Shown in pieces: positions 193 through 32,052 of a stretch of DNA of 32,104 nt. Position 1 is the first letter of the stretch; each line of letters begins with the position of its first letter. The stretch lies in assembly GCA_021159005.1 (NCBI GenBank), contig JAGGSN010000223.1, positions 1 through 32,104 on the forward strand, given 5' to 3'. The DNA comes from Candidatus Zixiibacteriota bacterium (GTDB lineage: Bacteria; Zixibacteria; MSB-5A5; UBA10806; 4484-95). The notes under the pieces are model-generated. The model was given only the letters and a program-made list of their open reading frames with translations, was not told where the DNA came from and did not search any database. A program made the translations under genes and the position numbers.

Positions 193-3100
193 TCATTTTA
201 TCGAACCGTCCGGAAAAACCGAAATATCATCGTTAAATAAAGCAGACGGCGTTGGCGGCGTTTCGGGGCAATAGGTTGGCGGAGGATTTACACCTCTGAA
301 ATATTGAACAAAATATACAACATCAGAACCCATAAATAAGCAATCGCCATTAACATCCGCAGCCGAATACAACCATGATTCATTCGATGTATTCCAGCAG
401 CTATCAGGAGGCGGATTGCCTGTCCCGCGGAAATAATTGACTGCGTAAGTTACATCGCTGCCAATAACAATGTCATCGCCATTAACATCGCCGGGCAAGT
501 AATCGCAATAGCCAAAAGGATCAATGAAAGTTACCGAACTGAAATATTCAACATAAGGGAAGCCATACCATCCCAGCGTATCGCCAATATTTGTTTCTCC
601 CTGAGGGGAATTAATTCCCATTCCCAGACAAGCCACTGTTTGTCCGATAAGGCTATCATCATCAACAGTTTTAAATGTGAATGTCATTATCTTACTGGCA
701 GTTTCTTGGTGAAGCCATGGAGCATCAGATTCGGAGCTAAGTCTGGCAAATCCCATAAATGCCTGATTTGACCATCCGGCTGGATTTGGCGGCGAACCAT
801 CTGGTGACAGAAATTCCGCCGCGTCCCATTCCGTTAACGGATAGTATAATTGACCCTCTGTTTGGCTTAGAAGGCTGTCGAAACAAGTGTTTTCTGCGCC
901 AAGACATAGGAGCATATCGCCAATATATACTTCCCCGGCAGCCAACATCCAAACATCAATGTTTAATCTGCTATTGACATTTGCAGTAAGCGGCGAACCA
1001 TCCAAATTGCCGTACCAGATAGCCGCTCCCTGAAAACAATCGCTCGATTTTAAAGTGGTATCATTTGCATAATTCATATCTGCTGACAGATTTGTATAGG
1101 CTTTGAGATTGTATATAGTATCAACAGATGGATAAAATGTATCAAAACCGGATACTGTATCAGTGGCATAACCAGGAACATTTGATAGTGAAACCGTATC
1201 AGCAAATTCTATGGCTGACGAGCCAAGAATACGCGCCTCGAAAATAACGCCGAAAGACTGCGTCTCCGACCCATAATTATTTACTTCGCATCTAATCAAT
1301 ATCGGCATATCCATAATCATGGAGTCTGTCGGGCTGAATATCTCGCTTACACCAGCATCATACGGCAGGCTATTTAGAGTAACATGAACCCTTGTAGTAT
1401 CGCCCTCGATAACCGAAATTCCGGTGATAGTAGTGTCTTGGTAGCCAGGATGGGAATAAGTAACACTATATGAACCCGAATCAAATCCGTAAAGAGTATA
1501 CATACCTGTTGCATCAGTAGTATCCTCAATAGATGGGCTGGAAGAATATGCATATACTCCCTCAATTGGTTCATACAGCTGATTTTTTACAATGCCGCTG
1601 ATTGCGCCATAGAATTCATCAACAACAGCTTCTGTTTCGGATGGCAGATAGTTATTCTTGGTAGCCGTAACATACATTGTCCCAAGAGTCGTGGGCGCCG
1701 GATAAAAAGTTACATCGCCGTTGATATCGGTCGAGCCGGTTAGATATACCTCGTCGCCTTTCATCAAACATACATAGCCTAAATAGATATTTGCGCCGCC
1801 AAAACTTTGAACATGCACCGTAAACGGATTAGAACCAAGCGGTATTGTATCGGGATGGGATACTATAAGGTTAACCGGAGTATCTGTCCAAACAGGCATC
1901 TCGGGGTCGCCCAGAAGAGTAAGCTCGGTAAATATTTGCTGTTCTGCGCCATAACTCGTCGGTCCATCGTTTTTATGATCGGAGAAAGCATTTCCCAGTT
2001 TATATTGCCCTTGACTTAACAGAGACCGGAAGAAATAGCGGTCATACAACATCGAAAGCGTATTATAGTCTCCCTGATAATACAACCCTGACCGCGAATT
2101 GCCGATAAAAGCAACACAGCCGCCATTCGAATCGCGGACGAAGTGTTCAGCTATGCAGCTGCTATAGTCATAGGAACAAGCCCAGCAGCCTAACGAATAT
2201 AAGATGCTTTGTCTGCTGCCATTACTGAAAGCGTCAACATCGCCGGTGTTGAGTCCCCAGCCGTGATTATGACTGCCGGTACCCATATAATATGTATATG
2301 AATGGTCGCTGTGATTTATCAGGTTCTGGCCGCTGTTAATCGAATTGATTACAGCAGTTCTATGATTGGTGCTCTGACTGTCATAAACCGTATCAATTGC
2401 CCAACCGGATGGAATATAATTATATGGAGAAGTATAGAGTTTTCTTTTTAGTATTTCAGAAAAGGTGTAGTCGTCAAGATCAAAAGCATACAAACCTATT
2501 TTTTCACAATAACTTGTTAAGGGCGGATTCTTTTCATAAGTTAAGACTTTATTCTTAAAAGTGGTAACGGCGCCGGAGGAGATTACCGAAGCTCTGCCGA
2601 CATGAACATTGCAGGTCCAATTGCCGTCATAGTCGGAATAGTATGTATCATTAGGAACATTCTCACCATTAACTGACTTAATATGATATGGAATCTGACC
2701 TGTATCGCCTCCCAGAAGGAAATAGACAGTTCCCCAAGTTGAATGGGCATCCATAATGAAGGCGCGTATTTTCTCAACATTGCTTCCGGAATATTCGCCG
2801 TAAATCCAAGTTGTAGTTACAATTTTTGCCGGTATTCCCTTCTTGGTTTTCCAATCAGCCAATGATTGAAAAGCACTGACAAAACTGCTGATAGTGATTA
2901 TAACATAATCATAATTGCCCGGGTCCAAAGCGATTTGAAATGGCGTATATTCTGAGGTTATTACCTTTGCATCCTCAGGATTAATTACCATACCTTTAAC
3001 CATGCTTTCATATTCACGCTTATTGAATTCAGACACTGCTGCCGGCAAATAATGACTGCAAACATTACCGAAATCACCCTGAATTGTAAAAGATATTTCA

Positions 3101-4516: not shown

Positions 4517-5950
4517 ATGCGGCTTTTTTTTATTTCAATATTATCAGCATTAATTCTTGTTGGCAGTACGGCAGCAGCTAACGAAATTGAAAATCTGCTT
4601 AGCCAATATGAAACCGACTACAGCGCTTTCGAGATGACAGAAATCAACGATATGATAGTTATCTGGAATCAAAGGACAATAGGTGAAGCTATTGTCGAAA
4701 AAGACCAAGTAGTGTATCAATTTGATAAAGAAACTAAAACACTTCGCTATAAAAAAGGCAATTGGCGGGATGATTTGCCGGAAAGTATTGATATAAATAT
4801 CAGTCAGCATCAAGCGGAAACCATTGCCGGCGGTGAAACGCAATTTTCCAATCTGTATATCATATCTCCCGAATCGGATGTCTTCCCTATCGAACCGACA
4901 CCCGAAAATCCATGCTGGGTAGTAAATACTATTGAGGGGAAGCAAATGAACGTGGTTATTATAGACGCCGTAACGGGCGACTTGCTTGGCTATGGCATCC
5001 CGCCGCCCGCCGCTTTTTCGATGTCGGGACCTCAATATGACCAACCCTGCAGTAATTTATGGTATCTCTGGTCTTATAATGCCAAGACTTGGTTCAATCA
5101 AATAGGTTATCCTTGCGAGTTTAATACTTGGCCTACTCAAGCAGAGCTAAAAGACCAAATTCAAGATAACAGTGTGGGAATGTTTTACGAAATTGCTCAT
5201 AGCGGTCATTCACCCAGCACCTACTTTTTAAGCGGCTGTGTCGGCGACACTGCTTTTGAGATTACCTACGCTGACAGCATCGCCGCATGGATAACCGATT
5301 ATGAGAAAATACCATTCGTTTTTATAGCCAGCTGTTATGGCATGTGCTATACCGATGAGCATACGCTTTCGCATGCTTTCAGGAAAGGTTCGCATATAAA
5401 TACCGCAACCGTAGGCTATTGTGATATGAGTGAATTTTATTGCAGCACATGTTGGACCTATTCATTAGACTGGCAGGATTCTTTGTTTTCGTATATCTCG
5501 CGCGGGTGGACTGTAAAACAGGCTTATGACCAGTCTATGGCAGATTTTCCTATATGCTCTCATGAAAACGGCTGCATGATATTTGAAGGCGATGAGACTT
5601 TCGCCGGACCTTATATTCGGGGATTGCCGCCGGATACAAATTATCAATATATGCCGGGGGATGCAAATATGGCTCTCAGTTTGTGGCCGCCGCGGGTTAT
5701 CGGCAGCGATTTGATATATTTAGCAAGATGTATTCTCGATAAAGCAGAACCTTGCCTTATTGACAGCTTCTATGTCGCCGGTGATGTTAACGGCGATTGC
5801 CAGGTTATCGGCAGCGATGTTACTCGACTGGTTAACTATTTTAAGGGCATAAGCGATATTCGATGGTGTCCCGAATACATCCCGGACTGGCTTCATAATG
5901 AAGCTATTCCCGAGCAGATGCCGTCGGATTGGCCCGGCTGCGATGATTAG
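4517..5950 (+). CDS. Secreted caspase-like cysteine peptidase with PepSY-like propeptide and dockerin repeats
   Basis: This is a 477-residue exported protein. The signal peptide is about 1-21 (ends S-T-A-A-A). Residues about 90-158 resemble a PepSY/FTP inhibitory propeptide (W-V-V-N-T ... V-I-I-D-A-V-T-G-D-L-L-G-Y-G). The central domain (about 165-375) has a caspase-like His...Cys arrangement: H228-S-G-H231-S and, 42 residues after the second His, Cys273 in I-A-S-C-Y-G-M-C. It is cysteine-rich, which suggests disulphides. The C-terminus holds a dockerin: a degenerate first loop (G-D-A-N-M, 381-385) with G-S-D-L, then a canonical G-D-V-N-G-D-C (422-428) with G-S-D-V. The start is supported by AAAAGGT just upstream. 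I infer a zymogen-type extracellular protease related to C25/caspase-fold enzymes; the exact family is uncertain. It converges on nrdJ. Confidence 0.7.
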   Translation: MRLFFISILSALILVGSTAAANEIENLLSQYETDYSAFEMTEINDMIVIWNQRTIGEAIVEKDQVVYQFDKETKTLRYKKGNWRDDLPESIDINISQHQAETIAGGETQFSNLYIISPESDVFPIEPTPENPCWVVNTIEGKQMNVVIIDAVTGDLLGYGIPPPAAFSMSGPQYDQPCSNLWYLWSYNAKTWFNQIGYPCEFNTWPTQAELKDQIQDNSVGMFYEIAHSGHSPSTYFLSGCVGDTAFEITYADSIAAWITDYEKIPFVFIASCYGMCYTDEHTLSHAFRKGSHINTATVGYCDMSEFYCSTCWTYSLDWQDSLFSYISRGWTVKQAYDQSMADFPICSHENGCMIFEGDETFAGPYIRGLPPDTNYQYMPGDANMALSLWPPRVIGSDLIYLARCILDKAEPCLIDSFYVAGDVNGDCQVIGSDVTRLVNYFKGISDIRWCPEYIPDWLHNEAIPEQMPSDWPGCDD

Positions 5951-30120: not shown

Positions 30121-30842
30121 TCAATCTTTATCCTTCACCGCTTCCAACAACGTAAAATCATAAAACTTGCCGATAACCTTGAACCTTATACTAATCACAA
30201 ATAATATTTTTATCCGCCCGCGAACTTCCATATTTGTCATCGCATAATGTCTGTTGTTAAGCTTAGAGAAACTAAAATTCAGGAAAAGCTCCTTTACTTT
30301 TTTAGGTCGGAGCACCTCGACATCAATGGTTTTATACAGGAAACTTTCCTTATCGATTATTATTTTCCCCCTAACTTGTCCTTTATCGGTTTTTTTTTAC
30401 GGGGATTAATCGAGATGATATAGGCATTATCGGTTTTTTCAAGCAATTCGAAATAGTAATTGGGGTCATCAATAGATAAATGTGATTTAATATCGAGTTT
30501 ATTTTTTTCATTTCTGTTTTTCTTATCATCCCTATCATCTTTATCATCAGAGCTGGAATAGATTATCTCACGAGTTAATTCCTCATCACCCTGCATCTTC
30601 ACTCGAGATATAATGGTATCAGCTTCATCATAAATACCCTCTTTATCGACTTTGCCGATAAGAATTTTCTCGGTGAATTCGATGATATAAGATTTACTAT
30701 TTTCTTCTTCAGCCTCAAGAGCATTTTGGGTGCGGTTGAGAATTTCCTCAAGGGTGATTTGTTGTGAATGTGCCTGACTAAAGACAGCTATGATTGATAA
30801 TAATATTACAGTTGATTTCAAAGTTCTATAAATTCCTTGCAA
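30121..30842 (-). pseudogene. LolA-like outer-membrane lipoprotein-sorting protein, interrupted by a -1 frameshift
   Basis: The first frame (30842-30360, TTG start, 160 residues) has a signal peptide (about 1-26, ends A-H-S) and the start of a LolA/LolB-like fold. It has a charged K/D-rich insert near 98-115 and ends ...L-G-G-K-stop. The -1 frame then continues without a break, I-I-I-D-K-E-S-F-L-Y-K-T, for 80 residues to 30121. I-D-K-E-S-F-L is the strand that normally follows in this family. A complete protein would be 240 residues. The shift must fall at 30360-30399, because the -1 frame has a TAA just before the A-run. That window holds nine A (30398-30390) and a G-GGA-AAA heptamer beside the stop. 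It is either a real mutation, a base-calling error in a homopolymer, or programmed slippage. The family call is moderate. Confidence 0.7.
30363..30398 (-). promoter_or_regulatory. Possible slippage site: A9 run and G-GGA-AAA heptamer
   Basis: Reading the minus strand, nine A lie at 30398-30390 and GGGAAAA at 30369-30363, split by the reading frame as G-GGA-AAA directly before TAA. X-XXY-YYZ is the standard -1 ribosomal slippery pattern, and A9 runs can cause RNA polymerase slippage. Both would yield the correct downstream frame. No downstream stimulatory stem was identified. Confidence 0.4.
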
Positions 30843-30958
30843 TTACTATTATCTTAAGCTGTAAATTATTGGGTATAAACGAATAATAACCCTGCAGTGT
30901 TTTTACGCACTTACCGGATGTTGAATCTTTAAAGTCTTGTATGTCCATTTATAATATC

Positions 30959-31010
30959 CTTATTGCAGGATACTGCAATAAGAAAATCTCTCGCTACAGT
31001 ATCCTGTAAT
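30959..31010. repeat. Switchable inverted repeat: two small hairpins or one long one
   Basis: CTTATTGCAG (30959-30968) pairs perfectly with CTGCAATAAG (30973-30982), loop GATA. TACAG (30995-30999) pairs with CTGTA (31004-31008), loop TATC. Alternatively, 30962-30975 pairs with 30997-31010 at 13 of 14 positions over a 21-base loop. The two arrangements exclude each other. The element lies in the 242-base spacer between two same-strand genes. It may be an attenuator-like leader for the LolA-like gene or a REP-type repeat pair. Confidence 0.5.
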
Positions 31011-31084: not shown

Positions 31085-32011
31085 TTACTTATGTTTGGAA
31101 TAGCCCTCCGGTATCTCAAACTTGCTGTCATCAACATCGCCTTTTTCGATACTCTGAACCTCAGTAGTCAATGTAAACACCATATTCATTCCGTCTTCAC
31201 TTTTGGGCTTATCATCTAATCCCATCATAGCGAGCATTTCCGGCGGAATCTGACTATGATCTTCACCGCCAGCGCCCATTGCCTCAGTGCTTTCCATCAG
31301 AATAGCTGTTTTGATAGGATAACCACCGGCTTTCTGCATCTGCTCTGTCATTTCATTAAATTGGTCTCCATAATAACCGAAAAACTGCGACATGCTATTT
31401 TGGCTCCACATCCTGTCAACGCCGGCTATATCAGCAAAGCTTTGACTAAATTCCGTTAATTCATCTATGGCAGGAACATCTTTGGCATACCAGTATTCAT
31501 AGGTAATCCGCATTTTCCTGTCAGGGTCGGTTTCATAAACGCCGTTGGCTTTGCCGGTTATTTTTTTACATTTAAAACCGTTAATATCAACATTTTCGTC
31601 AGATTTTTCTACCTCGACAGTCCAGATAAAGTCCGTTGGGTCATCTTTATCAGGAATACCGCCGGACATAGCTCCTTGACTCATAGTTCTTTCAAGGCCT
31701 TGAAGCATGGTTTCTGTATAAGTTCTCTTTTCTGTGTCGAGATCCCACATCATTTTCATATCCAGACGGGTGATATGTTGAAATTCGGTAGTCTTTTCGC
31801 CGCCGGTCATAGCCATGATGCCGCCGGATATTGTATTGATGCCTTTAGTACTGCTTCTGTCGCTTTTGACATACTGCGTTCCATCCATATCGATATTCAT
31901 CAGCCCGCCGGATTCCATGTGTGTCTTCTGTTTGATAATCACATCGGCTTCAACAATGTCAGCAAACCCAACAATTAGAATGGCAATTAGAATAAAGCTC
32001 AAATTTTTCAT
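31085..32011 (-). CDS. Exported protein of unknown function, DUF4412-like
   Basis: A protein of about 308 residues with a signal peptide (M-K-N-L-S-F ... I-V-E-A). The mature part is rich in Met, Asp, Glu and Gly, with beta-strand-like stretches (V-I-I-K-Q-K-T-H-M-E; R-L-D-M-K-M-M-W-D-L-D). One segment has W-T-V-E-V-E ... G-F-K-C-K-K-I-T-G, and the end reads F-E-I-P-E-G-Y. That ending and the G-F-x-C-x-K-x-x-G segment resemble the DUF4412 type of periplasmic proteins, an impression I cannot test here. AAAGGAGG sits close upstream of two adjacent ATG codons; the second (32011) has the better spacing. An in-frame ATG at 32032 would add seven residues. It shares strand with the LolA-like and VIT/VWA genes. 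Confidence 0.7.
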   Translation of the reverse strand: MKNLSFILIAILIVGFADIVEADVIIKQKTHMESGGLMNIDMDGTQYVKSDRSSTKGINTISGGIMAMTGGEKTTEFQHITRLDMKMMWDLDTEKRTYTETMLQGLERTMSQGAMSGGIPDKDDPTDFIWTVEVEKSDENVDINGFKCKKITGKANGVYETDPDRKMRITYEYWYAKDVPAIDELTEFSQSFADIAGVDRMWSQNSMSQFFGYYGDQFNEMTEQMQKAGGYPIKTAILMESTEAMGAGGEDHSQIPPEMLAMMGLDDKPKSEDGMNMVFTLTTEVQSIEKGDVDDSKFEIPEGYSKHK

Positions 32012-32052
32012 CATTCCTCCTTTATTAAGCATTATCTTTTAATTTCAGATTA

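Follow-up and report, generated by a model that had tools for sequence, protein, structure and literature searches.

In Escherichia coli, most slippery heptamers of the X_XXZ_ZZN class shift ribosomes into the -1 frame at a low level, and no stimulators are needed for it (PMC4066793). Homopolymeric runs are a second kind of slip site. In many bacterial genomes, A/T runs begin to be avoided once they reach a length of nine, and a gene that is disrupted but carries such a run may still give a full-length product (PMC1088944). For frame breaks met as singletons and validated by BLAST, the authors of GeneTack expect most to be sequencing errors (PMC3711429). The gene described here can be compared with each of these systems.

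It lies on the minus strand of a contig of 32,104 bases, which was analysed over its whole length (the window in what follows) and belongs to a draft genome of 241 contigs that is 97% complete. The end of its 0 frame reads ...CGT AAA AAA AAA CCG ATA AAG GAC AAG TTA GGG GGA AAA TAA, with the last coding base at 30363 and the stop at 30362-30360. The features around this stop are the following:

30360 to 30821, minus strand: 0-frame open reading frame with the signal peptide and the N-terminal two thirds, from the reading of the frame and homology to G003 (E 2e-49)
30121 to 30387, minus strand: continuation in the -1 frame, the C-terminal third (88 aa), with a TGA stop at 30123-30121 and 60% identity to G003
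30390 to 30398, minus strand: A9 run (CGT AAA AAA AAA CC), at which transcripts might slip; homologues lack it here
30363 to 30369, minus strand: heptamer G_GGA_AAA, directly before the 0-frame TAA and 3' of the junction given by homology; homologues lack it here

The gene is without an ATG, and its open frame may begin at TTG 30842 or TTG 30821; by inspection, the latter looks the better start, as it opens a signal-peptide-like MKSTVILLSIIAVFSQAHSQQ and has AAGGA before it. The 0-frame stop falls at residue 153 of about 233. Counted from 30387, the -1 frame reads DKGQVRGKIIIDKESFLYKT...KDKD for 88 residues up to the TGA, and an open frame of that length exceeds chance expectation (7 of 20,000 shuffles stayed open as long). 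Since a TAA at 30399-30397, overlapping the start of A9, closes this frame upstream, the switch must fall in 30360-30399. The anatomy given in the preliminary description, a 0 frame ending as GGG-GGA-AAA-TAA with the -1 frame carrying on, a frame change confined to about 40 bases and two kinds of slip site inside that interval, was thus confirmed. Its reading of one gene split by a single-base frame change also stands, because the two pieces have one homologue in common in G003, a genome of the same family: residues 44-195 of this homologue match the 0-frame piece (E about 2e-49) and residues 185-276 the -1 piece (E about 7e-36). It was right, too, that a simple one-base deletion would look the same.

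The nearest relatives of the window genome are Zixibacteria metagenome-assembled genomes, and another genome of the organism's own genus was not among the genomes searched. Homologues in a single intact frame of 230-278 codons are present in seven Zixibacteria genomes (G001, G003, G004, G006, G007, G008 and G020), and across 132 genomes of the class the window copy is the only one in which a stop divides the profile match. A first scan of the genome contigs with the truncated protein as the query had given no match, and a search for viral relatives of the protein found none. The gene was not found in G002 or G005, each about 95% complete, and no second intact copy was found in the window's own genome; for these two reasons, we think that the gene is dispensable. 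The name LolA-like, taken from the preliminary description, is plausible, but every match stays under its curated family cut-off: 18.3 bits against 30 for PF17131, and 16.2 bits against 83 for NF053579 (LolA3). What the protein shares with LolA-like proteins is the signal peptide, these sub-threshold matches and, in a weak fold model built from three sequences (pLDDT 43), a helix followed by about eleven strands. The product would be secreted or periplasmic and belong to a small family in Zixibacteria with LolA-like features.

The upstream neighbour is common to the window and G003 and, by inspection, G001:

31085 to 32032, minus strand: DUF4412-like gene (315 aa); in G003 and G001, the intact gene has a similar neighbour before it

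In G001 (L044 1974-5669), three tandem DUF4412-like-looking genes precede the LolA-like gene, and the last of them ends on its start codon; the corresponding gap in the window is 263 nt. This gap holds overlapping inverted repeats at 30954-31010 (ATTGCAGGATACTG / CAGTATCCTGTAAT and ATATCCTTATTGCAG / CTGCAATAAGAAAAT). It is single-copy in the genome and gave no Rfam match at the gathering score, which led us to reject an insertion element or an RNA family there. Elsewhere in the window, a dockerin-like duplicated motif, GDVNGDxxxxGSDVTxxVNYFRG, ends two proteins (193-600, minus strand, and 5640-5890, plus strand), a long secreted one of 1152 aa and a second one of 477 aa. The motif occurs as well in more than a dozen sampled open reading frames of G003, mostly near the C-terminus, and there was no NCBIfam match; it may be a domain for sorting or anchoring that is used across the phylum.

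The position of the frame change was mapped by sliding the switch point codon by codon and scoring each product against two profiles, built from overlapping sets of relatives. The score was maximal at 30387 (239.0 and 275.0 bits for the two profiles), fell by about 5 bits for a switch within A9 (233.5 and 270.4) and by 11.7 and 12.3 bits for a switch at the heptamer (227.3 and 262.7). The resulting feature is:

30384 to 30390, minus strand: best frame-change position by homology, with the profile score peak at 30387

This position is just 3' of A9, and the score peak at 30387 places the heptamer about 18 nt downstream of the junction. At this place the sequence of the three closest homologues is P-R-x-x-K-P-D-K-G, with codons such as AAG AAA AAA CCC GAC AAG GGT in G003 and GAA AAA CCT GAT AAA GGA in G001, and the window reads PRKKKP in the 0 frame and, directly after, DKGQVRGK in the -1 frame.

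The preliminary description had considered that conservation of the break, the A9 run and the heptamer would favour slippage. The alignment of homologues was done, and none of the seven relatives conserves the break or carries an A9 run or a heptamer at the aligned site. Together with a junction lying some 18 nt upstream, this leaves the canonical slippery heptamer unsupported as the cause. Programmed -1 ribosomal frameshifting at G_GGA_AAA, by which two products would be made, could appeal to a heptamer that is canonical, in the correct phase and touching the stop, and also to the low-level shifting of most such heptamers in E. coli without stimulators (PMC4066793). However, its product would lose an invariant Gly, and the deficit of about 12 bits under the best junction disfavours it. 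In a comparison that covered downstream folds other than pseudoknots, and no upstream Shine-Dalgarno-like spacer, the 95 nt that follow the heptamer did not fold better than shuffled sequences (z -0.67), and no stimulatory structure was seen among the folds scored. Moreover, in-frame heptamers of this type are common in the sampled genes (0.91 per kb), and of the 372 genes sampled, 20 have a heptamer no more than 30 nt from the stop; its place beside the stop is therefore an unremarkable coincidence. Given the junction position, the non-conservation and the lack of a downstream structure in this comparison, slippage at the heptamer was rejected, and we regard it as highly improbable.

The A9 run adjoins the junction, and slippage there keeps a small probability, but the best junction is just 3' of it. 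If RNA polymerase added a base in some of the transcripts, these would enter the right frame at once (233.5 bits), the full frame would be restored and some full-length protein made, with the arrangement being maintained. The run is rare in coding sequence of this genome, as 372 sampled genes hold 137 A7, 21 A8 and 2 A9 runs, and the -1 frame is still open. Nine is also the avoided A/T length in many bacteria, in which disrupted genes may stay productive (PMC1088944). Against such a maintained system, no homologue conserves the run, the slipped product has Thr where seven of seven homologues have an invariant Pro, at a cost of 5 bits from the optimum, and the sequence after the break is under relaxed constraint, as described below; we find it unlikely. 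A minor class of slipped transcripts is plausible, since bacteria are known to slip on runs of nine A (PMC1088944). It is quite unlikely, in our opinion, that such slippage partly masks a one-base loss, giving truncated protein together with some full-length LolA-like protein.

The main rival is a sequencing or assembly error, in which the organism would have an unbroken gene and a single base at or beside A9 was overlooked. A frameshift in a single genome beside a homopolymer has the usual look of an error, the genome is a draft of 241 contigs, the -1 frame, still open, retains its homology, and validated singletons are mostly errors according to the GeneTack authors (PMC3711429). We surveyed frame breaks in samples of about 0.51 Mb of the window genome and 1.19 Mb of G003. 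When G003 genes were compared with the window-genome sample, one gene in 162 had a break, the LolA-like gene itself (55,109 aligned residues), and in the reverse comparison none of 190 did. A second apparent break (L065 5208-5611) was a short open reading frame that disappeared once overlapping frames were removed. With the LolA-like gene as the sole break among 162 comparable genes, the assembly is not error-ridden, and a frameshift-ridden assembly was rejected.

The rates of change around the break bear on the same question. On a fixed tree, the branches before the break are similar in length (0.35 for the window and 0.41 for its sister G003), whereas after it the window branch is 0.59 and that of G003 0.057, about ten times faster in the window, in a test that is post hoc, concerns a single lineage and gains from a C-terminus that is unusually slow in G003. 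The contrast persists with the LG, WAG and JTT models and with trimming, and it was reached by one of 200 column permutations. Otherwise invariant residues were replaced or deleted at 5 of 16 positions after the break, one of them being a deleted Gly; before the break, the count was 0 of 9. Such accelerated changes and losses are not what an isolated error would produce, and we give an error a modest chance. The data point to relaxed constraint on the orphaned 3' third and, therefore, to a real mutation. The -1 frame stays open throughout its 88 codons, and comparison with relatives gives it a pN/pS of 0.25-0.55 (pN below pS); both results say that any decay is probably recent, or that the gene may be partly still expressed.

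A repeat search revealed a possible origin for the lost base:

30427 to 30439, minus strand: copy 1 of a 13-nt direct repeat, AAAAAACCGATAA, 44 nt upstream in the gene
30383 to 30395, minus strand: copy 2, an exact 13-nt match that spans the junction

This is the only pair of direct repeats of at least 13 nt within 60 nt in the window. A similar pair was matched in 4 of 2000 gene shuffles, and 0.077 such pairs occur per kb of the genome sample. Runs of A are very mutable, and a switch in A9 costs one substitution, the Thr for the invariant Pro; for both reasons, the base may also have been lost inside the run.

We consider it probable, with some reservation, that a real, lineage-specific loss of one base truncated a dispensable exported LolA-like gene, through misalignment at the repeat or the A run and with the heptamer as a bystander. 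In this organism's lineage, a base would have disappeared near 30384-30390 or within the neighbouring A run. Replication misalignment is the probable source, either between the two direct repeats or within the run; near-identical repeats could have misaligned in such a way that the copies were made identical and one base was lost. The protein would then be cut at residue 153 of about 233, and the truncated gene left as an incipient pseudogene whose orphaned 3' third starts drifting. The heptamer beside the stop would stand beyond the junction. What the sequences show directly is the split gene, its intact homologues, the place of the junction, the repeat and the faster change after the break. 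From these we infer that the loss belongs to the organism's DNA and not to the assembly, that misalignment caused it and that function was lost. After assembly error as the main rival, rescue by A9 is the most interesting one, and frameshifting at the heptamer is disfavoured.

In itself, the locus is ordinary and of little importance: another gene with a broken frame in a draft assembly. We think that it is useful as a worked case of how a textbook slippery heptamer near a stop can be coincidental. Mapping of the homology junction, combined with rates before and after the break, can help to tell recoding from error and from real decay when reads are lacking.

With -1 programmed ribosomal frameshifting at X_XXZ_ZZN heptamers, the locus shares motif and phase, but its heptamer is unconserved, lies away from the homology junction and has no stimulator that was found. 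Genes rescued by transcriptional slippage at nine A (PMC1088944) are closer, with a disrupted frame, an A9 beside the break and an open frame downstream; here, however, the run is unconserved, the best junction is just 3' of it and downstream constraint is relaxed. As in the singleton indel-disrupted genes that GeneTack assigns to pseudogenes or errors (PMC3711429), an unconserved break occurs in one genome and the two halves match one intact homologue, although the faster change past the break speaks for a real mutation over an error. The locus also resembles a frameshifted pseudogene: homologues are intact, the break is in one lineage and constraint after it is relaxed, with pN still below pS, so that the event would be recent.
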